Positions 35,545 through 51,146 of a stretch of DNA of 64,000 bases are shown in pieces. Source of the stretch: Acidimicrobiaceae bacterium (lineage in GTDB: Bacteria; Actinomycetota; Acidimicrobiia; Acidimicrobiales; RAAP-2). The notes under the pieces were generated by a model. The model had not been told where the DNA came from. It worked only from the letters and a program-made list of their open reading frames with translations, and made no database searches. The position numbers and the translations under genes are program-made. The stretch's first letter is position 1; every line of letters starts with the position of its first letter. The stretch is taken from the NCBI GenBank assembly GCA_003158855.1, contig PMLJ01000030.1, positions 1-64,000 on the forward strand. Direction: 5' to 3'.

Positions 35545-36425
35545 TCAGGACCGCTGCTCATTGCGCAGCCAGTCGCGGAAGAACGGATCTGCGACGGTGA
35601 CTACGCCATCACGCTCTACGACCGTTTCGTCGTCCTCAAACTCTCGAAGAGCTTTAGCCACAGAGGCCGCGTTGGCGTAGCCCACCGAGCGTACGAACCG
35701 TGCGGCCGTTGGCTGGCGCACCTCAGCGCTCGCCAGCCCCCACAGCACGCGCCGATGTCCGAAGGCGAGCTTGGAAAAGCGCTCTGCGTAAACCACGGAC
35801 TCATGCGCTACAACCTGATGCGTCGCAACGGCGACTCGCGCGGATGTGATGGTCTGGCTCGAGGCATCGAATGCCTCGTAGGCAAGGCGCTGGATGTCGT
35901 GGGGAATCGGACCAGCTTGATCGCAAATGTCTAGCGCCACCGCGGCGCTCATCGACTTGCCTCCGGATTTCGCACGTCGTTGAAGGTAGCGCTGCATGAC
36001 TGGAACCTCGACGGGCCCGAGCGCCAGCCGTTCAGCCATGTTGTAGAGCGGTGCGCCGGGGGCGAGCACCAGTGACTCCATGAGGTGGCGCCGTGATCCG
36101 GCAAGCACGAGTGACACGCCAGGGTGCTCATCGCACAGGGCTTTGAGAAGTTCGGGCAGTCGCGGGCTCAACTCGGCCGTGGCTTGGAACTCATCAAGCA
36201 TCAACACAGCGGGGCCGCTCATGGCCAACTCCGCCAAGATGCGGAACACATCGTCGATTAGTTGCTCGGCCTCGCGAGGGGTGGTGCTCGGAGCGAGGCT
36301 AAAAGAGGGGTGGCCGGCATCGTCGAACGTGACTGTGAATTGTGGACGTAGTCGCTTGGCAAACTCCACCACTGCCTGAGCGCTGCGACGCCAACTCCCA
36401 CCAGTGAGCCACGTCGAAGAACACC
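35545..36425 (-). pseudogene. AAA-type ATPase (DUF234/archaeal-type) lacking its N-terminus
   Basis: The minus strand encodes about 275 residues of a P-loop ATPase of the archaeal ATPase type: Walker B in AVLMLDEFQATAEL, sensor region SLVLAGSRRHLME, and the C-terminal winged helix ending VADPFFRDWLRNEQRS. Walker A and the first 60-80 residues are missing; traces (MVFFDVAH) continue in another frame to about 36425, where the sequence changes to the IclR gene. The ATPase was probably cut when the carboxylase module arrived. Confidence 0.65.
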
Positions 36426-36462: not shown

Positions 36463-37257
36463 CTATTCAAGTCCGCTGAGGCTCGGATAGGCAGTTCCCT
36501 CAACGTCCTCGAGTCTCAGTGCCAGACCGTTCGTGGCACGGAGCAGAGCGGGAACATACTGCGCCAGATCGTCGCGTGCGGAATAGTTGACGATGCCGAT
36601 CGCGGCTTTCACTGTTCCCCTGACGACCACCGGTGCGGCAATCGAGGTGGCGCCGAGCTGATACTCGGCATCGCTTTGGGCGTACCCACGCTGAGCGATC
36701 TGATTTAGTTGGCGGGACAACACCCGGCGCTCGGTCAGCGTCGACGAAGTGTGTGCCTTCAGCGGCATGGTGAGAATCGCGTCGATGAACGCGTCGGGGC
36801 TGAACGCCAGCAGGGCTTTGCCGACGCCGGTGGCGTGGAGGGGGATGTGTGCACCAACCCGGCTCTTCACCGGCACGGACACCTCAGAGGTCAACTTCTC
36901 GATGTAAATCGCGTCAGTACCCTCACAGACCGCCAGCTGCACAGTTTCACCGCACTCATAGTGCAAATTGAGCAGGAAGGGCATCGCAGTCTCACGCAAT
37001 CCGCCGTGAACGGGCGTGAGTAGACCCATCTCCCACAAGCGCACGCCGAGGCCGTAGCGCCCGGCGCCGTCGCGATGCAGGAAGCGGCCGTCTTCAAGTT
37101 CACCGGCCAGCCGGTACACGGTGGCGACCGGCAAACCGGCGCGACGGGCAAGCTGGCTGAGCGTGAGCAGCGGATGCTCGACGTCGAATGCCCCGAGAAC
37201 AGCCAGTGCACGCGCGATGACGGACTTCGCCTGGTTCTTGTAGAGTTCCTCGGTCAC
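36463..37257 (-). CDS. IclR-family regulator A
   Basis: A 264-residue IclR regulator. The winged-helix domain reads VIARALAVLGAFDVEHPLLTLSQLARRAGLPVATVYRLAGEL; the C-terminal effector domain has VGAHIPLHATGVGKALLAF and ATSIAAPVVVRGTVKAAIGI. GTG at 37257 overlaps the stop of the upstream IclR gene (GTGA); the longer open frame upstream is antisense to that gene. Both regulators are transcribed away from the carboxylase operon. The effector domain usually binds small acids or ketones in this family. Confidence 0.88.
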   Translation of the reverse strand: MTEELYKNQAKSVIARALAVLGAFDVEHPLLTLSQLARRAGLPVATVYRLAGELEDGRFLHRDGAGRYGLGVRLWEMGLLTPVHGGLRETAMPFLLNLHYECGETVQLAVCEGTDAIYIEKLTSEVSVPVKSRVGAHIPLHATGVGKALLAFSPDAFIDAILTMPLKAHTSSTLTERRVLSRQLNQIAQRGYAQSDAEYQLGATSIAAPVVVRGTVKAAIGIVNYSARDDLAQYVPALLRATNGLALRLEDVEGTAYPSLSGLE

Positions 37258-38042
37258 GCCCTGGTCCTCGCTTCGAGGTTGCCGGAGCCCGACAGGATAG
37301 TCGCAAGCCCGTGCGCGACGTGCCGAAGCTCCCGAATGAGACTCGGTGCGGGAGCGGCCGGGCCTGAGTCGGCATCCGTGTGGACCACAGCCTTCGTCGG
37401 GGTACTGACCGACAACGCCATCGGCGGGCGCCCTTCGGCGGGCACGGCGACAGCGTATTCGACACCCCCGTTGGCCTGCGCCATCCGTGCCCAACCCTGC
37501 GTCCTGATGAGAGCCAGGTTCTCTTCCAGCCGGTCGAAGTGGGTGCGGGTCAACGGAATAGCGCTCCTGTCCGCGGGGCTCAGACCGGCCAGGAGAACGC
37601 GTCCGGCGGCCGAATCGACTAACGACAGAGTCAGCCCGGGTCCGCCTGCGGGGGCGTTCGGACCCTGGCGCGCCACCTCTTGAACGTGTAGCGTGCTTTG
37701 CCCGCTGAAGACGAAGACCCGCACAACCATCCCTGAATCGGTCGTCAGCCGGGTCAGGAGGGGAAGCGTTCCCAGGCCGATCACATCATGCGTGGGCGCG
37801 AGAATGCCGAGTTCCCAGATTGTGGCGCCGATGCTGTACAGGCCGGCCGTGTTCCGTTCGACGGCCACGATGCCTTCCAGGCTGTTGAGCAGGCGGAAGG
37901 TTGTGGCGACGGGCAGACCGCTGGGGCGCGAGATCTGCGAAAGGGTCATTCGCCGATGGGTGATATCGAAAGCCATCAGCACAGCGAAGACCCGCTCGGT
38001 AACCGACTTCCCGGGTGTCCCCGTTCCGGATATCGCCATCAT
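37254..38042 (-). CDS. IclR-family regulator B
   Basis: A 262-residue IclR regulator, first gene of a two-gene unit. The helix-turn-helix segment is RRMTLSQISRPSGLPVATTFRLLNSLEG. The C-terminal domain contains DSAAGRVLLAGLSPADR and NGGVEYAVAVPAEGRPP, more divergent than regulator A. Start: tandem ATGATG at 38042/38039 behind GCGGGAGAG. Its promoter faces the carboxylase operon across 206 bp that hold two palindromes. The pair may form a heteromeric or hierarchical switch. Confidence 0.86.
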   Translation of the reverse strand: MMAISGTGTPGKSVTERVFAVLMAFDITHRRMTLSQISRPSGLPVATTFRLLNSLEGIVAVERNTAGLYSIGATIWELGILAPTHDVIGLGTLPLLTRLTTDSGMVVRVFVFSGQSTLHVQEVARQGPNAPAGGPGLTLSLVDSAAGRVLLAGLSPADRSAIPLTRTHFDRLEENLALIRTQGWARMAQANGGVEYAVAVPAEGRPPMALSVSTPTKAVVHTDADSGPAAPAPSLIRELRHVAHGLATILSGSGNLEARTRA

Positions 38043-38055
38043 CTCTCCCGCTTTC

Positions 38056-38068
38056 ATAACGTTGTTAT
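38056..38068. promoter_or_regulatory. Small palindrome upstream of IclR regulator B
   Basis: ATAAC-GTT-GTTAT, a perfect 5-3-5 palindrome 14 bp upstream of the regulator B start codon. Its position suggests an operator for autoregulation, but its short length makes chance occurrence possible. Confidence 0.4.
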
Positions 38069-38126
38069 TACACCCTAAATTGCTTTGCGCCGAATGGAAA
38101 CCCAACTCTCAATACCGCGGAACCCT

Positions 38127-38155
38127 TTGACTTTTCGGGGCTCGCTCAGTATTCT
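38127..38155 (+). promoter_or_regulatory. Predicted promoter of the carboxylase operon
   Basis: TTGACT at 38127-38132 and TATTCT at 38150-38155 are separated by 17 bp, a good sigma-70-type promoter. The predicted start point near 38162 lies about 87 bp upstream of the first gene of the operon. The -10 box and start point are inside the 33-bp palindrome. Confidence 0.65.
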
Positions 38156-38179
38156 TTTCATTGAATGAAAAGAATACTG
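38147..38179. promoter_or_regulatory. 33-bp perfect palindrome overlapping the operon promoter (likely IclR operator)
   Basis: CAGTATTCTTTTCATT, one central G, then AATGAAAAGAATACTG: two 16-bp arms that are exact reverse complements. It covers the -10 box and its centre coincides with the predicted transcription start. No T run follows, so it does not look like a terminator. IclR proteins bind palindromes at such positions, and two iclR genes are adjacent. Confidence 0.8.
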
Positions 38180-38248
38180 GCGTACCGTGACGCGGATGCT
38201 TACAATTGAGGCGATCCCACGGTCCCCCGTGAACGCAAAGGAGCAGTC

Positions 38249-40135
38249 ATGACTACTACGGACAATGCACGAGACGGCGTCCCGATCTCCACGCCGCTGC
38301 CTCAGGCTCCGGAACTGCGCAGTTTCCCCGATCCATACGATCTCGAGACCCCCGCCGGCGCCGAAGGGTGGGAAGAGATGTACGCCTACCACAACCGGTT
38401 CCTTGAGAGCCGCCGGGCGGAAGACTCCGCCAAGACCTGGTTCCGGAATTCGCTGCACTACCCGGAGGTCTCGTACCCCTTCGACCAGGTGACAATCGAC
38501 GGCGCCTTCACCGGCACCGGCGTCACCAACACCCGCATTTTCGCCCTGCCTCCTGCCAAGGGCCTCGACGTGCGGGTTATCAATGGGTACACATACATGA
38601 GCGCCATTCCGAGCCCTGACCAGGAAGAGCAGGCCCGCCGCGCAGTCGAGTTCAGCAAACGCGCCGGCTACTACTTCCAGAATTGGGATGCCCTCTACGG
38701 GGAGTGGGAAACACGCGTCACCGTCGCTATTCGCGGCGTGCACGACCTCGAGGTTCCCCCGCTCTCTGAATTCGAGCCGATTGAACGCGTCCTGGAAGAC
38801 CGGGGCCCCTCGCAGGGCAACCAGCTGCTCGCCTCCTACCACCGCCTACTGGAATACATCGATCAGATTTGGACCCTGCACTCCGAGTTCCTGAACCTGG
38901 GTTACACGGCGTACCTGCAATTCCTCACCCTGTGCAAGGAGCACTTCCCCGAGATCGATGACCAGACGATCTCGCGCATGGTCAGCGGAGTCGACGTGTT
39001 GCTCTTCCGCCCAGACGACGAGTTGCGTGCGCTGGCCCGCAAGGCGGAGGAACTCGGCGTCGGCGACATCGTGCGCGCCGCGTCCACCGAGGCCGACCTG
39101 AACAGCGGCCTGGGCGAAACCGACGCAGGCCGCGAATGGCTCGCCGCACTGGAGGAGAGCAAGGACCCGTGGTTCTACTTCTCTTACGGCTCGGGAATGT
39201 ACCACTCCCACCGCAGCTGGATCGACGATCTGTCCCTGCCGATCCAGGCGATCGGCGACTACATCGCACGCCTGCGCACCGGCGACGAGCTGAGCCGGCC
39301 GATCAAGAAGCTCCAGACGGAGCGCGACGAACTCGTCGCCCACTACCGCTCATTGCTTGACGACGAGGACGTCAGTGCTTTCGATGAAGCGCTCGGGTTG
39401 TCCCGTACCGTGTTCCCCTACGTGGAAAACCACAACTTCTACGTGGAGCACTGGTTTCTCACCAACTTTTGGAACAAGGCCCGCGAGTTCAGCCGGCTGT
39501 TGCAGAAGTGGGGTTTCTGGGACGATGTCGAGGACATTTTCTTCCTGCGTCGGGCTGAGGTCGAAGAGGCGATCGTGGACCTTCAGATGGCTTGGGCTGC
39601 CGGCGGAAAAGCACAGGGCGGGCACTACTGGCCAGGGATCATTGCCCGCCGCAAGGAGATTTATTCGACACTGACTGAGTGGTCCCCGCCCCCGGCACTC
39701 GGGCCGGTACCCGACGAGATCAATGAACCGCTCACCATCATGCTCTGGGGAATCACCCCAGAGACCGTCGAGCGCTGGCTGGCAGCCCAGAACGGCGACA
39801 GCAGCAACAACACCCTGACCGGATTCGCTGGTTCCCCCGGAATCGCTGAAGGTCCCGCCCGCGTGGTGCTGCGACCGGATCAACTGGACACCGTGCAGGA
39901 AGGTGAGATCCTCGTCGCACCGGTCACCAGCCCGAGCTGGACGCCCGTCTTCGGCCGCATCCGGGGAGCGGTCAGCGACATCGGCGGCATCATGTGCCAC
40001 GCGGCCATCGTTTCCCGTGAGTATGGCCTACCTGCCGTGGTTGGAACGGGTTTCGGCACTTCCACGATCAAGACCGGTCAGATGATCCGGGTCGACGGCA
40101 ACGCCGGCACTGTGACCATCCTCGACGGAATCTGA
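38249..40135 (+). CDS. PEP-synthase-like phosphotransferase, swivelling-His subunit (phenylphosphate synthase 70-kDa-like)
   Basis: This 628-residue protein has a C-terminal PEP-utilising 'swivelling' domain: GFAGSPGIAEGPARVV, then IGGIMCHAAIVSREYG, with His584 as the residue that would carry phosphate. The first ~500 residues lack the ATP-grasp and TIM-barrel domains of full PEP synthase and match the mobile-subunit pattern. The size (about 70 kDa) and the separate ATP-grasp partner downstream copy phenylphosphate synthase (PpsA + PpsB), where phosphate is moved from ATP via His to phenol. Here the acceptor is unknown; the operon context suggests an enolisable ketone (inference). ATG follows AAGGAG. 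Confidence 0.85.
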   Translation: MTTTDNARDGVPISTPLPQAPELRSFPDPYDLETPAGAEGWEEMYAYHNRFLESRRAEDSAKTWFRNSLHYPEVSYPFDQVTIDGAFTGTGVTNTRIFALPPAKGLDVRVINGYTYMSAIPSPDQEEQARRAVEFSKRAGYYFQNWDALYGEWETRVTVAIRGVHDLEVPPLSEFEPIERVLEDRGPSQGNQLLASYHRLLEYIDQIWTLHSEFLNLGYTAYLQFLTLCKEHFPEIDDQTISRMVSGVDVLLFRPDDELRALARKAEELGVGDIVRAASTEADLNSGLGETDAGREWLAALEESKDPWFYFSYGSGMYHSHRSWIDDLSLPIQAIGDYIARLRTGDELSRPIKKLQTERDELVAHYRSLLDDEDVSAFDEALGLSRTVFPYVENHNFYVEHWFLTNFWNKAREFSRLLQKWGFWDDVEDIFFLRRAEVEEAIVDLQMAWAAGGKAQGGHYWPGIIARRKEIYSTLTEWSPPPALGPVPDEINEPLTIMLWGITPETVERWLAAQNGDSSNNTLTGFAGSPGIAEGPARVVLRPDQLDTVQEGEILVAPVTSPSWTPVFGRIRGAVSDIGGIMCHAAIVSREYGLPAVVGTGFGTSTIKTGQMIRVDGNAGTVTILDGI

Positions 40136-40151
40136 TCCAGGGACAAACGCC

Positions 40152-41255
40152 GTGGCTAACTACACCAAGAAATTCGAGGAGTTGTCCTCGGGCGACCGCG
40201 CACTGGTGGGTGGCAAGTGCGCGAGTCTCGGGGAGATGGTGCAGGCCGGTCTCCCCGTGCCGGCCGGTTTCGCCGTCACAGTGGATGCGTATGAGGACTT
40301 CCGCGACACCGGTGACCTGCGCCAGCGGCTGCTCGGCATCGTCATGGGTGCCGACGCCTCGAGCAACGCCGGATTGCAGCGGGCGCACGACGAAGCGGTC
40401 GCGCTGATCCTGGGACGTAACCTGGCGTCCGCCATCGAGCAGCAGATCCGCGAGGCTTATCTCGAGCTCTCCCGGGAGACGGCTCTGCGCCGCGGAGCAG
40501 GAGATGCGGACCGGATTCCGGTCGCGGTTCGCTCTTCCTCCACCGATGAGGACGGCGACGCCGCCAGCTTCGCGGGCCAGCAGGAAACGTACCTGTGGGT
40601 CGTCGGCGCTGACGAGGTGATCGCGAAGGTGCGCGAATGCTGGGCCAGCCTGTACACCCCGCAGGCCATCGCCTACCGCTCGGGCATGAGCGCGACGGAT
40701 GCTGCGGAGGCGTCCAAGATCTCGGTGGCCGTGCAGTTGATGGCCCACGCTGACGTCGCGGGCGTCACCTTCACGGTCAGCCCCCGCACCGGTGACCGCT
40801 CCCTCATTGCCATCAATGCCAGCTGGGGTCTCGGCCAGGCCGTGGTCTCGGGTGAAGTGACGCCGGACGAATACTGGCTGAGCAAGATCGGCCCGGCTGT
40901 CACCAGCAGCCGAATCGCCTCGAAGGCCCACGAGTATGTGCCGGATCCGAGCGGCGTCGGGGTGGTCTTCCGCGATGTCGAGGAGTCACGCCGCGAGATC
41001 CCCTGCCTGACCGAGGCGGAGCTCGTGCAGCTGGCCGAGATCGGACTCCAGGTCGAGAGGCACTACGGCTCTCCCCAGGACATCGAATGGGCGCTGGAGC
41101 ACAACGTCGACGGCACCTCCCAGGTGATGCTGCTTCAAGCCCGACCGGAAACCAACTGGAAAAAGCGCAAAGAAGAGAAGGGTAAGAACACGTCGTCGGC
41201 CACCGCCGGCCTGCTCGGATTCCTCTCACAGGCCACGAAGGGAAACGACAAGTGA
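40152..41255 (+). CDS. PEP-synthase-like ATP-grasp subunit (phenylphosphate synthase 40-kDa-like)
   Basis: A 367-residue protein equal to the N-terminal ATP-binding domain of PEP synthase/PPDK: LVGGKCASLGEMVQAGLPVPAGFAV at the start, then VAVRSSSTDEDGDAASFAGQQ, INASWGLGQAVVSGEVTPDEY and the C-terminal DIEWALEHN with LLQARPET. All are nucleotide-binding motifs of the family. It has no His domain of its own, so it must work with the preceding subunit, 16 bp upstream. GTG start at 40152. The C-terminus adds a short Lys-rich tail (WKKRKEEKGK). It ends in a GTGA overlap with the biotin carrier gene. Confidence 0.88.
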   Translation: MANYTKKFEELSSGDRALVGGKCASLGEMVQAGLPVPAGFAVTVDAYEDFRDTGDLRQRLLGIVMGADASSNAGLQRAHDEAVALILGRNLASAIEQQIREAYLELSRETALRRGAGDADRIPVAVRSSSTDEDGDAASFAGQQETYLWVVGADEVIAKVRECWASLYTPQAIAYRSGMSATDAAEASKISVAVQLMAHADVAGVTFTVSPRTGDRSLIAINASWGLGQAVVSGEVTPDEYWLSKIGPAVTSSRIASKAHEYVPDPSGVGVVFRDVEESRREIPCLTEAELVQLAEIGLQVERHYGSPQDIEWALEHNVDGTSQVMLLQARPETNWKKRKEEKGKNTSSATAGLLGFLSQATKGNDK

Positions 41256-41719
41256 CCGACAACACCACACCCAGTTGGCAGCACCTCCTCGACTTGGTGA
41301 CCCAACTGGACTCGGGGTCGTATGACTCGGCATTCGTTGCCTATGGCAATATCTCGGTGCAGCTGTCCCGCTCCGGGGCTCTTGCCGCTCCGGTGGCGAC
41401 CGCTCCCGCTCCCGCTCCCGCTCCCGCTCCCGCGAGTACATCCCCTGCAGCGACGTCGCCGGAGCCGTCCGAAACGATCATCCCCTCGCCCATGATCGGT
41501 GTCTTCTACCGCTGCCCCTCTCCGGGTGCGCCCCCGTTCGTCGAACTCGGGGCGCGCGTCGAACCCGACACGACAGTCGGCATCGTCGAGGTCATGAAGT
41601 TGATGAACCCGGTGACCGCCGGAGTGGACGGCACGCTCACGAGTTTTCTGGTGAAAGACAACGAGCAGGTCGAGTACGGCCAGGCCCTCGCCGTCGTCTC
41701 CGAAGTCGGCACGCCATGA
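41252..41719 (+). CDS. Biotin carboxyl carrier subunit (BCCP)
   Basis: A 155-residue carrier. The biotinyl domain is C-terminal, with the biotin-accepting Lys116 in VEVMKLMNPV. It begins with a helical segment (residues 1-40) followed by an Ala-Pro linker encoded by a short DNA repeat. The organisation resembles AccB of acetyl-CoA carboxylase, but the context (no accA/accD nearby, and a pyruvate-carboxylase-type transferase two genes on) shows it belongs to a different carboxylase. GTG start overlaps the preceding stop; its stop overlaps the next ATG. Confidence 0.9.
   Translation: MTDNTTPSWQHLLDLVTQLDSGSYDSAFVAYGNISVQLSRSGALAAPVATAPAPAPAPAPASTSPAATSPEPSETIIPSPMIGVFYRCPSPGAPPFVELGARVEPDTTVGIVEVMKLMNPVTAGVDGTLTSFLVKDNEQVEYGQALAVVSEVGTP
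41401..41432 (+). repeat. CGCTCC tandem repeat encoding the Ala-Pro linker
   Basis: Five consecutive copies of the 6-mer CGCTCC, plus a partial copy, inside the biotin carrier gene. In frame this encodes an alternating Ala-Pro linker between the N-terminal helix and the biotinyl domain. Because the unit is 6 bp, length changes would keep the frame and merely lengthen or shorten the linker. Confidence 0.8.
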
Positions 41720-43116
41720 TCGAGGTGGGCAACGGGAACTCGGATGCCGCACCCGTCGTTCTGGTGGCCAACCGGGGCGAAATCGCGGTGCGAATCATCG
41801 CTGCGGCGCGGCGCATCGGGGCCAGTCCCGTTCTGGCCGCCAGCGCAGCCGACTCGGATTCCCCGGCCGCCCGACTCGCCGACCGCGTCATCGTGATCGG
41901 TCCTGCACAGGCTGGCCAGTCATACCTGCGCCCCGAACTGATCGCGACCGCCGCGCTGCAGGCCGGGGCAGCCGTGGTGCACCCGGGCTACGGTTTCCTA
42001 AGCGAGCAGCCCGAGTTGGCCGAACTGCTCGAGCGGGAGAACATCGCCTTCGCAGGTCCTCGACCGGAGACGCTGCGAGCCGTCGGAGACAAGAGCAGCG
42101 CACGCAAAGTTGCAGTGGCGGCCGGGGTGCCCGTTGCCCCCGCCGTCGAAATCGACGATGTCGAAGCCGCAGCGGGCCTCGGCGAATCCATCGGTTACCC
42201 GCTGCTGATCAAAGCAGTCTTCGGGGGCGGCGGGCGCGGCATCCGTCTGGTGAAAGACGCCGGGGAACTGGCCCGGTTGGCCCCTCAGGCGGCGGCTGAA
42301 GCCCAGGCGGCCTTCGGCAACGGCGCCCTGTATCTCGAACGTTTTTATCCGGCTGCCCGGCACGTGGAGGTGCAGGTGTTCGGCGACGGCGAGGGCCGGG
42401 CACAGATCTTCGGCGACCGGGACTGCTCTGTGCAGCGGCGGCACCAGAAACTCATCGAGGAGTGCCCCGCGCCCGGGCTCTCCGCAGCGACCCGAGCCGT
42501 GCTGCACGATGCATCGCGTGCCCTCGTGCAGGCGCTTGCCTACCGCGGCGCTGGCACGGTGGAGTTCCTCGTGGACACCGAATCAGAGGCTGTGGTGTTC
42601 CTGGAGGTCAACGCCCGCATCCAGGTCGAACATCCCGTCACCGAGGAGGCCTATGGCATCGACCTGGTGGCCGCCCAACTGCGCCTGGCACTCGGTTGGG
42701 ACCCCGAACTTCCGGACGTCCCTCCCGTCCCTCCCGCCACGGTCATCGAACTGAGGATCAACGCCGAAGATCCGGAGAACGATTTCCGGCCCAGCCCAGG
42801 CACGATCAGCCAGGTGCGGTGGCCGACCGGGCCCGGCATCCGCGTGGACACCCAGCTCGAAAGCGGCTACCGCTTCCCCCCGTTCTACGACAGCCTGATG
42901 GCAAAACTCATCGTGCGCGCCCACAGCCGGGACGCCGCAGTAGCGGCGGCCCGGTCAGCGGCCGAAACGGTCGTGATCGACGGGGTGACTACCACTCTTC
43001 CGCTGCACGAGTTCGTACTCTCCCACCCTGATTTCATTCGAGGCGGCGTCACCACCTCGTGGTTCGGCCCCACCTGGGAAAATCGAAGCGAACAACGGAT
43101 GGAGTCCGTTCGATGA
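41716..43116 (+). CDS. Biotin carboxylase subunit
   Basis: A 466-residue ATP-grasp enzyme that carboxylates biotin with bicarbonate and ATP. Motifs are VLVANRGEIAVRIIAAARRIG, HPGYGFLSE, the ATP-grasp loop KAVFGGGGRGIRLV, RDCSVQRRHQKLIEE and FLEVNARIQVEHPVTEE (family consensus EMNxRLQVEH). Length is typical of a stand-alone AccC-type subunit. ATG at 41716 overlaps the carrier stop, and its own stop overlaps the start of the transferase gene. The gene pair carrier-biotin carboxylase is complete and apparently functional. Confidence 0.93.
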   Translation: MIEVGNGNSDAAPVVLVANRGEIAVRIIAAARRIGASPVLAASAADSDSPAARLADRVIVIGPAQAGQSYLRPELIATAALQAGAAVVHPGYGFLSEQPELAELLERENIAFAGPRPETLRAVGDKSSARKVAVAAGVPVAPAVEIDDVEAAAGLGESIGYPLLIKAVFGGGGRGIRLVKDAGELARLAPQAAAEAQAAFGNGALYLERFYPAARHVEVQVFGDGEGRAQIFGDRDCSVQRRHQKLIEECPAPGLSAATRAVLHDASRALVQALAYRGAGTVEFLVDTESEAVVFLEVNARIQVEHPVTEEAYGIDLVAAQLRLALGWDPELPDVPPVPPATVIELRINAEDPENDFRPSPGTISQVRWPTGPGIRVDTQLESGYRFPPFYDSLMAKLIVRAHSRDAAVAAARSAAETVVIDGVTTTLPLHEFVLSHPDFIRGGVTTSWFGPTWENRSEQRMESVR

Positions 43117-44651
43117 CCCTTCAGCGCCAGCCGATCCGCCTGGTCGACACCAGCCTGCGCGACGGCAACCAGAGCCTGTGGGGTGCCACCGGGCTGACCA
43201 CCGGCATGGTGGAGGCGGTCGGCCCCCATCTGGACCGGGTGGGCTACGAAGCGATCGACTTCACCAGCTCCACAAACCTTTCTGTGGGCGTGAAGTGGCA
43301 CAAGGAGAATCCGTGGGAACGAATCTCACGGATGCGCGACGTCATGCCGAACACCCCGCTCTCCGCTATCACCACCGGAATGCGCTTCATGTCCTGGGAG
43401 AAGGCCGCTGAGCCGGTCATTCGCATGGCATTGCGGCTGATGGCCAGCCACGGACTGCGCCGGCTGCAGATCATCGAACCCATGAACGACCTCGACGCTC
43501 TGCTCCGAGTTGCCCAGTGGTCCAAGGAGGAGGGCTTCGAGACCGTCGTGGCAGCGGTCACCTTCACCGAAAGCCCCGTGCACACTGACGCCCGCTACAG
43601 CCACAACATCGCCGCCTACGCCGCCAGCGAGTATGTCGATTCCGTCTATCTCAAAGACCCGGGCGGCCTGCTCACGGCCGAGCGCACCCGTCAGTTGATT
43701 CCCGGTGTTCGAACGGCCGCGGGCAGCAAGACCCTGGAACTGCACAGCCACACCACGACAGGCGCGGCATCCCACCTCTACCTGATCGCCGCTGAACTCG
43801 GCGTCGATGTGCTGCATACGGGACTCGGTCCGCTGTCCAACGGCACGGCCCAGCCCAGCCTCGAGAACCTCCTGACGAACTTGGATGCCCTGGGCATTCC
43901 GGTCCAGGCCGACCGCGACGCTGCAGCCGCTGCAGCCGACGTTCTGTACTCCATCGCCAGGTCACAGGGTCTGCCGGCCGGGGTGCCCACCGAATACAAC
44001 CTGAGTTCCCACGTGCATCAGGTCCCGGGCGGCATGATGGGCACCCTCAGACGCCAGCTCAGCGAGCTTCGCATGCTGGACAAATTGCCCGCCGTGATCG
44101 AGGAGTCGGGTCGCGTACGCGCCGACCTCGGATATCCGATCATGGTCACGCCCTTCAGCCAGTTCGTCGGCAGCCAGGCGCTGATGAACGTGCTGGCCGC
44201 CACGAGCGGCCAGGAGCGTTACAGCCGGATTCCGGACGAGGTCGTGCGGTTCGTCCTCGGCCACTTCGGCACTCCGGAAGGCGAGATCGCGCCGGAGGTG
44301 CTGGACAAGATCTCCCGCCTGCCCCGCGCGAGGGAACTCGCCGAGCCTCCGGTCGAGAAGTCTCTGGAGCAACTCCACGAAGAGTACTCGGCGCGGCTCG
44401 GCCGCCCACTGGCCGAGGAAGAGCTCCTGCTGCGCATCGTCCTTGCCGAGGATCTCGTCGACACCATGCTCGCCGCCGGGCCGGCGCCGCGCTGGTCCGC
44501 AGGCGGAGTGGTCCGAACCGGGAAAGCGGTGGCTTCGATCCCTGAATTCATCCGGGCGGCCCACGAGCTCCCGAACTGGAAATACCTTGCCGTGAACTTC
44601 GGGACCGAAAAAGTGGAGCTGCACCGAACCGTGAACGAAGGAACGTCGTGA
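43113..44651 (+). CDS. Biotin-dependent carboxyltransferase, pyruvate carboxylase/OadA-type with altered active-site motifs
   Basis: A 512-residue TIM-barrel transferase. It keeps the fold's landmarks in changed form: VDTSLRDGNQSLW (pyruvate carboxylase has TTLRDAHQSL), the carbamylatable Lys181 in YLKDPGGLL (MKDMAGLL), metal His211/His213 in LHSHTTTG (HTHDTxG), then LGPLSNGTAQPSLE and HQVPGGMMGTL (PGGQYTNL). The metal and Lys residues are conserved, the acceptor-site residues are not, so a substrate other than pyruvate/oxaloacetate is likely. It has no C-terminal biotinyl domain. ATG at 43113 overlaps the biotin carboxylase stop. The upstream M at 43059 lies inside that gene. Confidence 0.85.
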   Translation: MTLQRQPIRLVDTSLRDGNQSLWGATGLTTGMVEAVGPHLDRVGYEAIDFTSSTNLSVGVKWHKENPWERISRMRDVMPNTPLSAITTGMRFMSWEKAAEPVIRMALRLMASHGLRRLQIIEPMNDLDALLRVAQWSKEEGFETVVAAVTFTESPVHTDARYSHNIAAYAASEYVDSVYLKDPGGLLTAERTRQLIPGVRTAAGSKTLELHSHTTTGAASHLYLIAAELGVDVLHTGLGPLSNGTAQPSLENLLTNLDALGIPVQADRDAAAAAADVLYSIARSQGLPAGVPTEYNLSSHVHQVPGGMMGTLRRQLSELRMLDKLPAVIEESGRVRADLGYPIMVTPFSQFVGSQALMNVLAATSGQERYSRIPDEVVRFVLGHFGTPEGEIAPEVLDKISRLPRARELAEPPVEKSLEQLHEEYSARLGRPLAEEELLLRIVLAEDLVDTMLAAGPAPRWSAGGVVRTGKAVASIPEFIRAAHELPNWKYLAVNFGTEKVELHRTVNEGTS

Positions 44652-45538
44652 ATCCGGAAGAACTGACAAGAAGACTCGCGACTGTTCGGGGGGTCATGTT
44701 CGATATCGACGGATGCCTGATCCTCTCCGACGGACCGAGTGGGCTGGGCGGGAGCGTTCTCCCCGGTGCGCGCGAGGCGATCGACCTGGTCAGGAACAGC
44801 GGGCGCAGCTTGGCCGTCTTCACCAACGGCTCTGGGCATGCACCCCACCAGATCGCCGATTCCCTGCGCGGATTGGGCCTGGACATCCGCGACCACGAGG
44901 TGCTCACCCCGGCCGTCGTCGCCGCCGAGACGATGCAGGCGCTTTACCAGCAGCAACCGCTCCTGGTCTTCGGCGGAATCGGAATGCATTATGACTTCCA
45001 GAAGCGCGGGCTCAACGTTGTCGACCTGGACCGCGCCGTGGCCGGCGAACCTACGAATGCCGTCGCTGTCGTGATTGGCTGGGACACCGACTTTGGCCGG
45101 GACAAACTCCAGGTCGCCGCCGAGGCAGTTCTGGCCGGCGCGGAAATTTACTGCACCTCTGATGCCCCGTCATTCGCCTCTGAGCACCGCCTCAACGTGG
45201 GGGTTTCGGGTTTCATCGCAGCCGGGCTCTCCCACGTCACGAGGCGCCCTTACCGGGTGTTGGGCAAGCCGTCAGCAGAAGCGATGGAGATCCTGGTGCA
45301 GAGGCTCGGGGTTTCCGCAGAGCAGGTGTTGATCATCGGCGACGACCTGATCCTGGAATGCTCCATGGCCCGCGCGAGCGGCGCCCTCGGATTCCTGGTC
45401 ACGACCGGAACGAACTCGGCTGCCGACGCCGAATCCGCGCCTGCTGACCGGAAGCCGGATGTGGTGGTCGACAGCATGACCGAATTTGTCGAGCTTCTTT
45501 CGCTGGTTTCCGAGCCCTCCGTACCCCGTGCCGTATAG
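44648..45538 (+). CDS. HAD superfamily IIA phosphatase (NagD-like)
   Basis: A 296-residue HAD hydrolase of the NagD/PGP group. Motif I MFDIDGCLILSD has the nucleophile Asp19 and Asp21; motif II is VFTNGSG; motif III Lys is in RVLGKPSAEAMEIL; motif IV is IIGDDLILE. The cap domain lies between motifs II and III. GTG at 44648 overlaps the transferase stop by four bases. Its place in a phosphorylation/carboxylation operon suggests that it removes phosphate from a pathway intermediate or a dead-end side product (inference). Confidence 0.86.
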   Translation: MNPEELTRRLATVRGVMFDIDGCLILSDGPSGLGGSVLPGAREAIDLVRNSGRSLAVFTNGSGHAPHQIADSLRGLGLDIRDHEVLTPAVVAAETMQALYQQQPLLVFGGIGMHYDFQKRGLNVVDLDRAVAGEPTNAVAVVIGWDTDFGRDKLQVAAEAVLAGAEIYCTSDAPSFASEHRLNVGVSGFIAAGLSHVTRRPYRVLGKPSAEAMEILVQRLGVSAEQVLIIGDDLILECSMARASGALGFLVTTGTNSAADAESAPADRKPDVVVDSMTEFVELLSLVSEPSVPRAV

Positions 45539-45584
45539 CCCGACCCACGCCATGCCAACAGAATCCGCACAGGAAAGGACACAG

Positions 45585-47615
45585 ATGTTCGATCGAAGCG
45601 CACCCGCCGATACCCGTCAGGTGACGTGGCAGCCGACGAGCGAACAACGACAGCAGACCCGAATCTGGGACTTCTTGAGCTGGGTCGAAGCGACCCGCAG
45701 CGTGCACCTGGCCGACTACCGCGAGCTCTGGCGCTGGTCGGTGGATGACCTCTCGGGCTTCTGGGACGCGGTGCGGGAGTACTTCGACGTTGTGGGTGAA
45801 GGTTTCGACGGACCGGCGTTGACCGAGGAACGGATGCCCGGGGCGGTCTGGTACCCGCGCGCGCGGCTGAACTTCGCCGAAAATGTTCTTCGCTACGCCG
45901 ATTCTCCTGGGTTTTGTGACAGGACAGCCGTGCTGACCATTCGCGAGGACGACTCCACCTCCGAGCTGACCTGGCACGAACTCCGCGACAGGGTCGCTTC
46001 CCTCGCCGGGAGGCTGCGGGGGCTCGGAGTCGAACCGGGCGACCGCGTCGCGGCTGTCCTTCCCAATCTTCCTGAGGCCATCATCGGTCTGCTCGCGACG
46101 GCCAGCATCGGTGCGATCTGGAGCATCAACTCCCCGGATCTGTCTGCGACTGCGACCTTGGAGCGGCTGCGTCAACTCGAGCCCACCGTTCTAATCGGCG
46201 TGGATGGCTACCGATTCAACGGCAAAGACATCGACCGCGTCGATTACCTCGCCGAGGTCGAAGCCGGCCTGCCGTCCCTGGCGCACACCATCCTGGTCCG
46301 AAACCCTGACCGAGCACACAGCGCGACCACCTCAGAAAATGCACGCGCGGGACGGCTGGATTTCAGTGCGCTGGTCACGGATACCGTCGAACCACGGTAC
46401 GAGCGCGTGCCATTCGACCACCCGCTCTGGGTACTGTTCTCCTCCGGCACCACCGGTGCGCCGAAGGGCATTGTGCATGGGCACGGCGGGATGACCCTGG
46501 AGGCGCTCAAAGGCACCGCGCTCAACCAGAACATGGGAGCGGGAGACCGGTACTACGTCGCCGCGAACACCTCCTGGATGGTCTGGAACACCCTCGTCAA
46601 CAACCTCATGTCCGGTGCCTCGGTGGTCACTTACAGTGGCTCCCCGCTTTTCGGCAGCCCGGACCGCCAATTCGACATCATTGCCCGCACCGGAACCACG
46701 ATGTTCGCCACCGGCGCGGCTTACCTCTCCCTGGTCGAAAAGTCCGGCCTCGAACCGGGCCGCACCCACGACCTCTCCGCGCTTGCCTCGGTCATGTCCA
46801 CCGGATCTCCACTGCCCGGTTCCACCTGGCGCTGGGTTCATGACCATGTCAAGCACGATGTGCACCTGGGGTCCGACAGCGGCGGTACAGACATCTGCAG
46901 CGGCTTCATCGGTTCCAATCCGCTGGAGCCGGTGCACGTCGGCGAGATTCAGGGGCCACTGCTCGGCGTCGCTGTCGAAGCCTGGTCCGAAAGCGGACGC
47001 CGTGTCGTCGGCGAGGTGGGGGAGATGGTGATCACCCGTCCGATGCCTTCCATGCCCGTGTTCTTCTGGGGCGACGACGACGGGTCGCGGTATCTCGGTT
47101 CCTACTTCGAGAAATTTCCCGGCATCTGGGCCCAGGGCGACTGGATCACCGAGACCATGGACGGGGCATTCGTCGTGCACGGCCGCTCCGACGCGACCCT
47201 GAACCGGGCGGGTGTACGTCTCGGAAGCGCGGACATCTACGCCGCGCTCCAGCACATTCCCGACGTTCGCGAGTCACTGGTGATCGGGCTCGAACAACCC
47301 GATGGCGACTATTACATGCCGCTCTTCGTCGTCCTTGCCAACGGATGCCAGCTCAGCGAAGAACTCGAGAAGAGAATCCGGGCCACGATCCGGGATCTGG
47401 CCTCGGCCCGTCATGTGCCGGACGACATCATCCTCGCCCCGGCCATCCCCGTCACCCACGCCCAGAAGAAGATCGAGGTGCCACTGAAAAAGCTCTTCTC
47501 CGGGCACAGCCCGGACACGGCGATCAACCGCGGCTCACTTGCCAACCCCGAATCCATCGACTGGTTCGTCGACCGGGCCGAACGCTACCTCACCGAACTC
47601 AAACACCACCAGTAG
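45585..47615 (+). CDS. Acetoacetyl-CoA synthetase-type acid-CoA ligase
   Basis: A 676-residue adenylate-forming enzyme with the features of acetoacetyl-CoA synthetase: N-terminal WDFLSWVEATRSVHLADYRELWRWSV, the core P-loop LFSSGTTGAPKGIVHGHGG, LGSDSGGTDICSGF, and C-terminal GRSDATLNRAGVRLGSADIY with Lys in THAQKKIEVPLKKL. Acetoacetate-CoA ligase and benzoylacetate-CoA ligase belong to this branch, so the substrate is a beta-keto acid. ATG at 45585 was chosen because AGGAAAGGA lies just upstream; the longer frame to 45486 overlaps the HAD gene. It is the last gene of the operon. Confidence 0.9.
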   Translation: MFDRSAPADTRQVTWQPTSEQRQQTRIWDFLSWVEATRSVHLADYRELWRWSVDDLSGFWDAVREYFDVVGEGFDGPALTEERMPGAVWYPRARLNFAENVLRYADSPGFCDRTAVLTIREDDSTSELTWHELRDRVASLAGRLRGLGVEPGDRVAAVLPNLPEAIIGLLATASIGAIWSINSPDLSATATLERLRQLEPTVLIGVDGYRFNGKDIDRVDYLAEVEAGLPSLAHTILVRNPDRAHSATTSENARAGRLDFSALVTDTVEPRYERVPFDHPLWVLFSSGTTGAPKGIVHGHGGMTLEALKGTALNQNMGAGDRYYVAANTSWMVWNTLVNNLMSGASVVTYSGSPLFGSPDRQFDIIARTGTTMFATGAAYLSLVEKSGLEPGRTHDLSALASVMSTGSPLPGSTWRWVHDHVKHDVHLGSDSGGTDICSGFIGSNPLEPVHVGEIQGPLLGVAVEAWSESGRRVVGEVGEMVITRPMPSMPVFFWGDDDGSRYLGSYFEKFPGIWAQGDWITETMDGAFVVHGRSDATLNRAGVRLGSADIYAALQHIPDVRESLVIGLEQPDGDYYMPLFVVLANGCQLSEELEKRIRATIRDLASARHVPDDIILAPAIPVTHAQKKIEVPLKKLFSGHSPDTAINRGSLANPESIDWFVDRAERYLTELKHHQ

Positions 47616-50267: not shown

Positions 50268-51146
50268 ATGACGAAGGGCACGCTACACGTTGAGACGCTC
50301 ACGGCGATTGACATGCACGTGCACGTCGAACAAGACTCGCACGGACACTTTTCACTCGATCAAGAGTTGATGGACGCTTCAGCGAAATACTTCAAGTCGG
50401 GCGAGGACCGCGCGCCGAGACTTGGGGCGATTGCCGAACGGTACCGTTCCCTTAACATGGCAGCAGTTGTCTTCACCGTCGACGCGACGATCGCGACGGG
50501 GCACGTGGCAATTTCGAGTGAGGAGATCGCTCAGGAAGCGCAAGACTTCGCTGATGTCTTGATTCCGTTTGGCTCGGTGGATCCGCACGAGGGAACCGTG
50601 GCGCTCGACAAGGCGCGCCATTTGGTAGAGGACTGCGGAGTCAGGGGGTTCAAGTTTCACCCGAGTTTGCAGGATTTCCGTCCGAACGCACCCGAATACT
50701 TTCAGCTTTACGAACTGCTGCAAGACCTCGCGGTGCCGACGATCTTTCACACGGGGCAAACAGGTATTGGCGCCAATCTTCCGGGGGGACGCGGCATTAA
50801 GCTCGCCGTGTCGGATCCGCTGTTGCTCGACGAGGTAGCGGCAACCTTTCCGGGTCTGACAATAGTGCTCGCGCACGCGGGCATGCCATGGTACGAGAAC
50901 GCCCTCGCCATGGCGACGCACAAATCCAACGTGTTCATTGATCTTTCAGGTTGGTCGCCGAAGTATCTACCCGCGCCCCTCGTACGAGCGGCGAGCAGTT
51001 ACATGAGCCACAAGATGCTTTTCGGTTCCGATTTTCCCGTCATCACACCCGAGCGTTGGCTTCGTGATTTTGAAGGTCTCGAGATCGCTGACGAGGTGCG
51101 AACACGCATACTGAAGGAGAACGCCGTTCGCGTGCTCGGTCTATGA
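50268..51146 (+). CDS. Amidohydrolase-family TIM-barrel protein (gamma-resorcylate decarboxylase-like)
   Basis: A 292-residue metal-dependent amidohydrolase. Metal ligands are AIDMHVHVEQD (HxH on strand 1), KFHPSLQDF, IFHTGQTGIG, VLAHAGMPW and LFGSDFPVI (final Asp). ATG at 50268 follows GGAGG, so a functional start is clear. The group includes decarboxylases of aromatic and muconate acids as well as hydrolases. It is the only apparently intact catabolic gene between the IS remnants and the integrase. A related relic is at 26020-26310. Confidence 0.82.
   Translation: MTKGTLHVETLTAIDMHVHVEQDSHGHFSLDQELMDASAKYFKSGEDRAPRLGAIAERYRSLNMAAVVFTVDATIATGHVAISSEEIAQEAQDFADVLIPFGSVDPHEGTVALDKARHLVEDCGVRGFKFHPSLQDFRPNAPEYFQLYELLQDLAVPTIFHTGQTGIGANLPGGRGIKLAVSDPLLLDEVAATFPGLTIVLAHAGMPWYENALAMATHKSNVFIDLSGWSPKYLPAPLVRAASSYMSHKMLFGSDFPVITPERWLRDFEGLEIADEVRTRILKENAVRVLGL

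Follow-up and report, generated by a model that had tools for sequence, protein, structure and literature searches.

A perfect palindrome of 33 bp precedes what appears to be a carboxylase operon in an Acidimicrobiaceae bacterium. This raises the question of whether all of the element, or only a part of it, serves a regulator, and if so, which regulator and with what effect. We have examined this question in the window (the whole stretch of 64,000 nucleotides) and in a set of related loci fetched with the protein of the first operon gene, namely the best 80 of 214, of which the 16 closest (L005-L020) are at least 68% identical. The answer proposed here rests on the site itself, its conservation, its fit to an IclR motif, its co-occurrence with one IclR gene and, in five loci, a second copy at a pathway gene. 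In all likelihood, the palindrome is a single IclR-family operator that is bound by the protein we call IclR1 and controls an operon of PEP-utiliser, biotin carboxylase and acetoacetyl-CoA synthetase genes in response to a ketone or its product. This would assign a likely regulator and its site to an operon resembling a biotin-dependent ketone carboxylase pathway, although the kind of control is an ordinary and already known one. The coordinates of the features are collected in table 1.

Table 1. Features of the palindrome region, in window coordinates
Feature	Positions	Strand	Basis or remark
IclR1, divergent IclR-family regulator, probable binder	36463..37257	-	Domains; conservation beside the site
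IclR2, second IclR-family protein, intact in the window	37254..38042	-	Shortened in both L005 and L006
Degenerate second site TTTGCGCCGAATGGAAA, 4 mismatches	38084..38100		Centre 71 bp from O1
Promoter P1 of the preliminary description: TTGACT (38127-38132), 17 nt, TATTCT (38150-38155)	38127..38155	+	Strong match confined to the window and L005
Full perfect palindrome (core and two 8-bp outer arms)	38147..38179		Inverted-repeat search; chance estimate
Left outer arm CAGTATTC	38147..38154		Pairs perfectly with the right arm in the window and L005, not elsewhere
Core operator O1 TTTTCATTGAATGAAAA (IclR group 1, WTT-11-AAW type)	38155..38171		Motif fit and conservation
Right outer arm GAATACTG	38172..38179		Identical in the window, L005 and L006
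Putative promoter P2: weak -35 TGGCGT (38178-38183), 17 nt, -10 TACAAT (38201-38206)	38178..38206	+	Conserved position
First operon gene: PEP-utiliser mobile-domain protein (PRK08296 type)	38249..40135	+	Domain/model match
Rest of the presumed operon: PPDK-N ATP-binding subunit, BCCP, biotin carboxylase, carboxyltransferase, HAD phosphatase, acetoacetyl-CoA synthetase	40152..47615	+	Domain/model match

The Palindrome and Its IclR-Type Core

The palindrome has exactly the coordinates and the 16+1+16 structure first attributed to it: its two arms (38147-38162 and 38164-38179) are 100% complementary and stand 1 nt apart. With loops of 0-10 allowed, no other perfect inverted repeat in the window is as long, and the runners-up have arms of 11 bp. 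The initial opinion that such a length is improbable by chance is borne out by both estimates that we made. Only 0.0004 arms of 16 nt are expected in 64 kb from base composition alone, and the maximal arms in 20 simulated 64-kb sequences measured 9-12 bp versus the 16 bp of the palindrome. The element is also unique in the 2.7-Mb assembly (96.5% complete), with up to 3 mismatches allowed.

The central 17 bp of the palindrome, the core operator O1, agree at 16 of 17 positions with WTTYCRYW3RYGRAAW, the consensus of subgroup iii of the IclR group 1 sites (Suvorova and Gelfand 2021, PMC8222616); the sole misfit is a G in place of W at the centre. No other match with at most 1 mismatch (the centre left free) exists in the window, where 0.13 would be expected by chance. 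A 3-mismatch match also occurs at 50349 (0.14 expected by chance). Like the WTT-11-AAW sites of that study, O1 is a 17-bp palindrome of the same consensus that lies near IclR genes and a divergent operon. It differs from them in its central G (G or C in most relatives, A/T in theirs) and, in the window's lineage, in the extra perfect 8-bp arm on each side. The main text of PMC8222616, its supplements apart, makes no mention of acetone, ketone, acetoacet- or biotin. From its motif fit and conservation, the core is very probably a conserved IclR-family operator of an ordinary, known type, and the view that the palindrome serves the divergent carboxylase operon as an IclR-type operator can be retained at that same strength.

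Tandem IclR sites lie mainly 18-22 nt apart, centre to centre (PMC8222616). No second site is found at this distance from O1. In the 320 nt that precede the gene, just one further site with up to 4 mismatches turned up, 71 bp off, so a tandem arrangement was rejected. Wider spacings do recur among the relatives. In L007-L010 a second site (2-3 mismatches) lies 72-74 bp from the first, and L017, L018 and L019 have two operator copies 101 bp apart, the distal one with a central A (TTTTCACTAAATGAAAA); in L017 and L019 this second site lies on the IclR1 side.

Conservation of the Site

In 15 of the 16 closest loci, a copy of TTTTCAYTSARTGAAAA with 0-2 mismatches precedes the first gene; because such loci share ancestry, this and the following counts are not of independent cases. 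The proposed search of homologous operons for the palindrome thus turned out in favour of an operator, since these 15 retain its core. The exception, L014 (first gene 73% identical), has no site upstream and no adjacent IclR1 either. In the 64 further loci among the best 80 of 214 (L021-L084), no site within 2 mismatches was found anywhere in the DNA searched; their upstream regions match the 19-bp core at no more than 13 of 19 positions, and those of the site-bearing loci at 15 or more.

The site was also sought in two taxonomic groups. In the family of Cryobacterium glaciale (G101), the first gene was found in 30 of 398 genomes. Among the 30 best loci of this family, counted apart from nine second matches, the site (0-1 mismatch) is present in every one of the 11 with 65-84% identity and absent from the 19 with 45-48%; at least eight of the 11 repeat loci from the 80-locus set. 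In the genus of the window (99 genomes), the first gene, IclR1 and the exact core each occur in three genomes, and these are the same three. One other genome of the genus (G019) has a 1-mismatch copy of the core (L122) with neither the first gene nor IclR1, and a 1-mismatch copy in contig 23 of G000 was rejected as a site, lying as it does inside a short-chain dehydrogenase reading frame. The closest relatives, L005 (a 97% relative of the window) and L006, are bog MAGs of the same genus, also named Acidimicrobiaceae bacterium; judged by their contig coordinates, they coincide with the records G005 and G036. On a 1.39-Mb plasmid of Rhodococcus sp. JS3073 (L127), the first six operon genes are accompanied by the two IclR genes and by two sites 72 bp apart, hinting at a horizontal spread of the cluster. 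The motif should be usable for finding the pathway elsewhere.

The Presumed Operon and a Possible Second Target

The genes downstream of the palindrome are closely spaced on one strand, and for this reason we presume that they are cotranscribed. The content of the operon (38249-47615) suggests carboxylation of a ketone to an acetoacetate-like product, with acetone-like compounds as substrates. It joins a split PEP-synthase-like pair to the parts of a biotin carboxylase and an acetoacetyl-CoA synthetase; for an acetone carboxylase that depends on biotin and has a PEP-synthase-like partner, or for its regulator, no account appeared among the papers listed by literature searches.

The acetoacetyl-CoA synthetase is encoded within the main operon in the window. 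In L012, L013, L015, L016 and L020, a second copy of the site (0-2 mismatches) lies at the 5' end of the gene just beyond IclR1, and in all five the product of this gene passes the acetoacetate--CoA ligase cut-off. These second copies precede the likely start codon of the synthetase by 11-26 nt, as read by hand. In these other genomes a shared site thus links the operon to acetoacetyl-CoA synthetase. L017 and L019 complicate this link, as they also have a synthetase gene beyond IclR1 but without a site of its own in the stretch searched (best 7 mismatches). No site lies beyond IclR1 in the window or in L005-L011 (best 6-9 mismatches).

The Probable Regulator

Two IclR genes had been described as diverging from the palindrome. 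Both together do diverge from the operon, but they form a tandem on the minus strand, with IclR2 first and IclR1 behind it. IclR1 has the HTH_IclR and IclR_C domains (Pfam E 3.9e-11 and 4.8e-34, each scoring over the gathering threshold). It is like the PcaU/PobR/PcaR regulators in that its best model is theirs (TIGR02431), though its 127 bits lie far below the cut-off of 285 and do not place it in that subfamily. Orthologues of IclR1 (55-98% identical) are divergent from the operon, either adjoining it or one gene off, in 14 of the 15 site-bearing loci; the contig of the 15th, L018, ends before the IclR1 region. A reading frame of 275 aa that adjoins IclR1 in the window (35545-36372) has no Pfam match at E 0.001.

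IclR2 is present in L005 and L007-L011 and was not found in L012-L017, L019 or L020. In L005, 273 bp have been lost in frame between two 11-bp repeat copies, and with them most of the helix-turn-helix; in L006, about 580 bp have been lost. The intact gene of the window contains a direct repeat of 11-13 bp (37711-37723 and 37984-37996), of which L005 keeps one copy. The site core is intact in L005 and L006 despite the damaged IclR2. Since the two close relatives have kept the site but not an intact IclR2, the distal IclR1 is the better candidate, and the earlier notion of two IclR partners gives way to one conserved partner. One position of the recognition helix also distinguishes the two kinds of loci: IclR1 has Tyr or Phe there in all 15 site-bearing cases (window included), and the five aligned IclRs of the site-less loci L014, L021, L022, L023 and L025 have His or Gln, in an alignment that leaves aside the IclR proteins of L026-L084. 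With its Phe at this position and its nearly identical helix, the intact IclR2 may be a binder too.

Putative Promoters and the Sign of Control

The preliminary description recognized a single promoter, P1, overlapping the palindrome. Its hexamers are indeed present and are the only consensus promoter match in 38000-38300, where shuffles give 0.1; P1 is not conserved, however, and a place farther downstream is the better one in most loci. When 16 promoters (without L005 and L013, with L096 and L099) were aligned on the site, the best-scoring offset put a -10 box 30 nt past the core. For 12 of these (the same set minus L018, L020, L096 and L099), none of 400 shuffles of the downstream DNA reached the observed promoter score at the fixed distance. 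The corresponding promoter of the window would be P2, whose -10 box belongs to a stretch that L005 and L006 share unchanged.

The two places were also scored like for like in 16 loci (the window, L005-L013 and L015-L020); the sigma-70 frequency tables used here and for the two alignments above are approximate. Taking the best of three offsets, the means were 4.9 at the downstream place versus 1.8 at the P1 place, or 4.4 versus 0.3 in the 14 loci other than the window and L005; with a single offset in all 16, they were 2.0 versus -0.7. The downstream place scores higher in 14 of the 16 loci, L012 and L013 being near ties. P1 scores 11.6 in both the window and L005, where the downstream place scores 7.6 and 9.2; because P1 outscores P2 there, both promoters may be used in this lineage.

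An operator near -50 is in an activator-like position, and one that covers the -10 box and +1 is in the position of a repressor. The expected start of P2, reckoned by hand, is at about 38213, which places the operator centre near -50. Since the promoter at the conserved place lies downstream of an operator so centred, activation is slightly favoured as the sign of control. By inference, a dimer or tetramer of IclR1 would bind the 17-bp, perhaps 19-bp, site TTTTCAYTSARTGAAAA and, in response to the ketone or one of its products, would control the operon, slightly more probably than not by activation of P2 and possibly also by repression of the lineage-specific upstream promoter P1.

A somewhat less probable but serious alternative, close to the picture in the preliminary description, is that the palindrome is essentially a repressor operator, on which an IclR protein blocks the polymerase at the overlapping TTGACT/TATTCT until it is released by binding the ketone. 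The strength of P1 in the window, its presence in L005 and its placement, with the operator over the -10 box and +1, all agree with this, and the close spacing of the second sites before the acetoacetyl-CoA synthetase start is also more repressor-like. Against it, P1 is kept neither in L006 nor in the other loci, and the means for the 14 loci given above favour the downstream place, near ties included.

If the promoter is taken to be the one at the conserved place, the operator precedes it, as with the PcaU/PobR/PcaR regulators. Unlike their sites, O1 is A/T-rich and not of the GTNCG type listed for them (PMC8222616), and its operon is not one for aromatic ring cleavage. No third half-site box of the PcaU type (TGTTYCA-like) was seen in the palindrome flanks on inspection by eye.

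The Outer Arms

The 33 bp had been thought long for one IclR site, and cooperative binding or two overlapping operators had been considered. The relatives do not bear this out. With the window and L005 set aside, the eight flank positions of the remaining 14 loci pair in 27 of 112 cells, which is the chance level (about 27% expected). A core that is kept, with flank pairing at chance elsewhere, points to one operator with a lineage-specific extension, and the perfect outer arms are probably recent and dispensable for binding.

That the whole 33 bp is a functional unit, with two dimers binding cooperatively or the outer arms adding contacts, appears improbable to us. In its favour, eight extra perfect pairs would hardly arise by chance, 8 of 12 cells of L006-L009 match at flank pairs 1-3, and L007 keeps CAG/CTG at pairs 6-8. 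Yet besides the chance-level pairing, the left arm is broken in L006, a member of the same genus, and the usual spacing of tandem IclR sites (PMC8222616) is absent from a single palindrome.

A single operator with a recent extension raises the matter of how the extension arose. Compared with the window, the left arm of L006 has one substitution and one extra base and the centre base differs too, the right arm being identical. Template switching between inverted repeats homogenises their arms and inverts their spacers (PMC8604942). Such an event fits the differences between L006 and the window, as do separate point changes. It is conceivable, if rather speculative, that in the window's lineage one template switch acted on a quasi-palindrome. 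The left arm would then have been made to match the right one and the centre base inverted, which would have perfected an old IclR operator and at the same stroke produced the -10 box TATTCT; the operator, until then located upstream of an activated promoter, would have acquired a further promoter under its direct control.

Finally, a hairpin, cruciform element or terminator with no protein site is very improbable, since no terminator match was found (the terminator reading was rejected on this ground) and what is conserved is the IclR motif and not the outer-arm pairing, even though the sequence, as single-stranded DNA, forms a strong fold (-17.2 kcal/mol, z -9.3).
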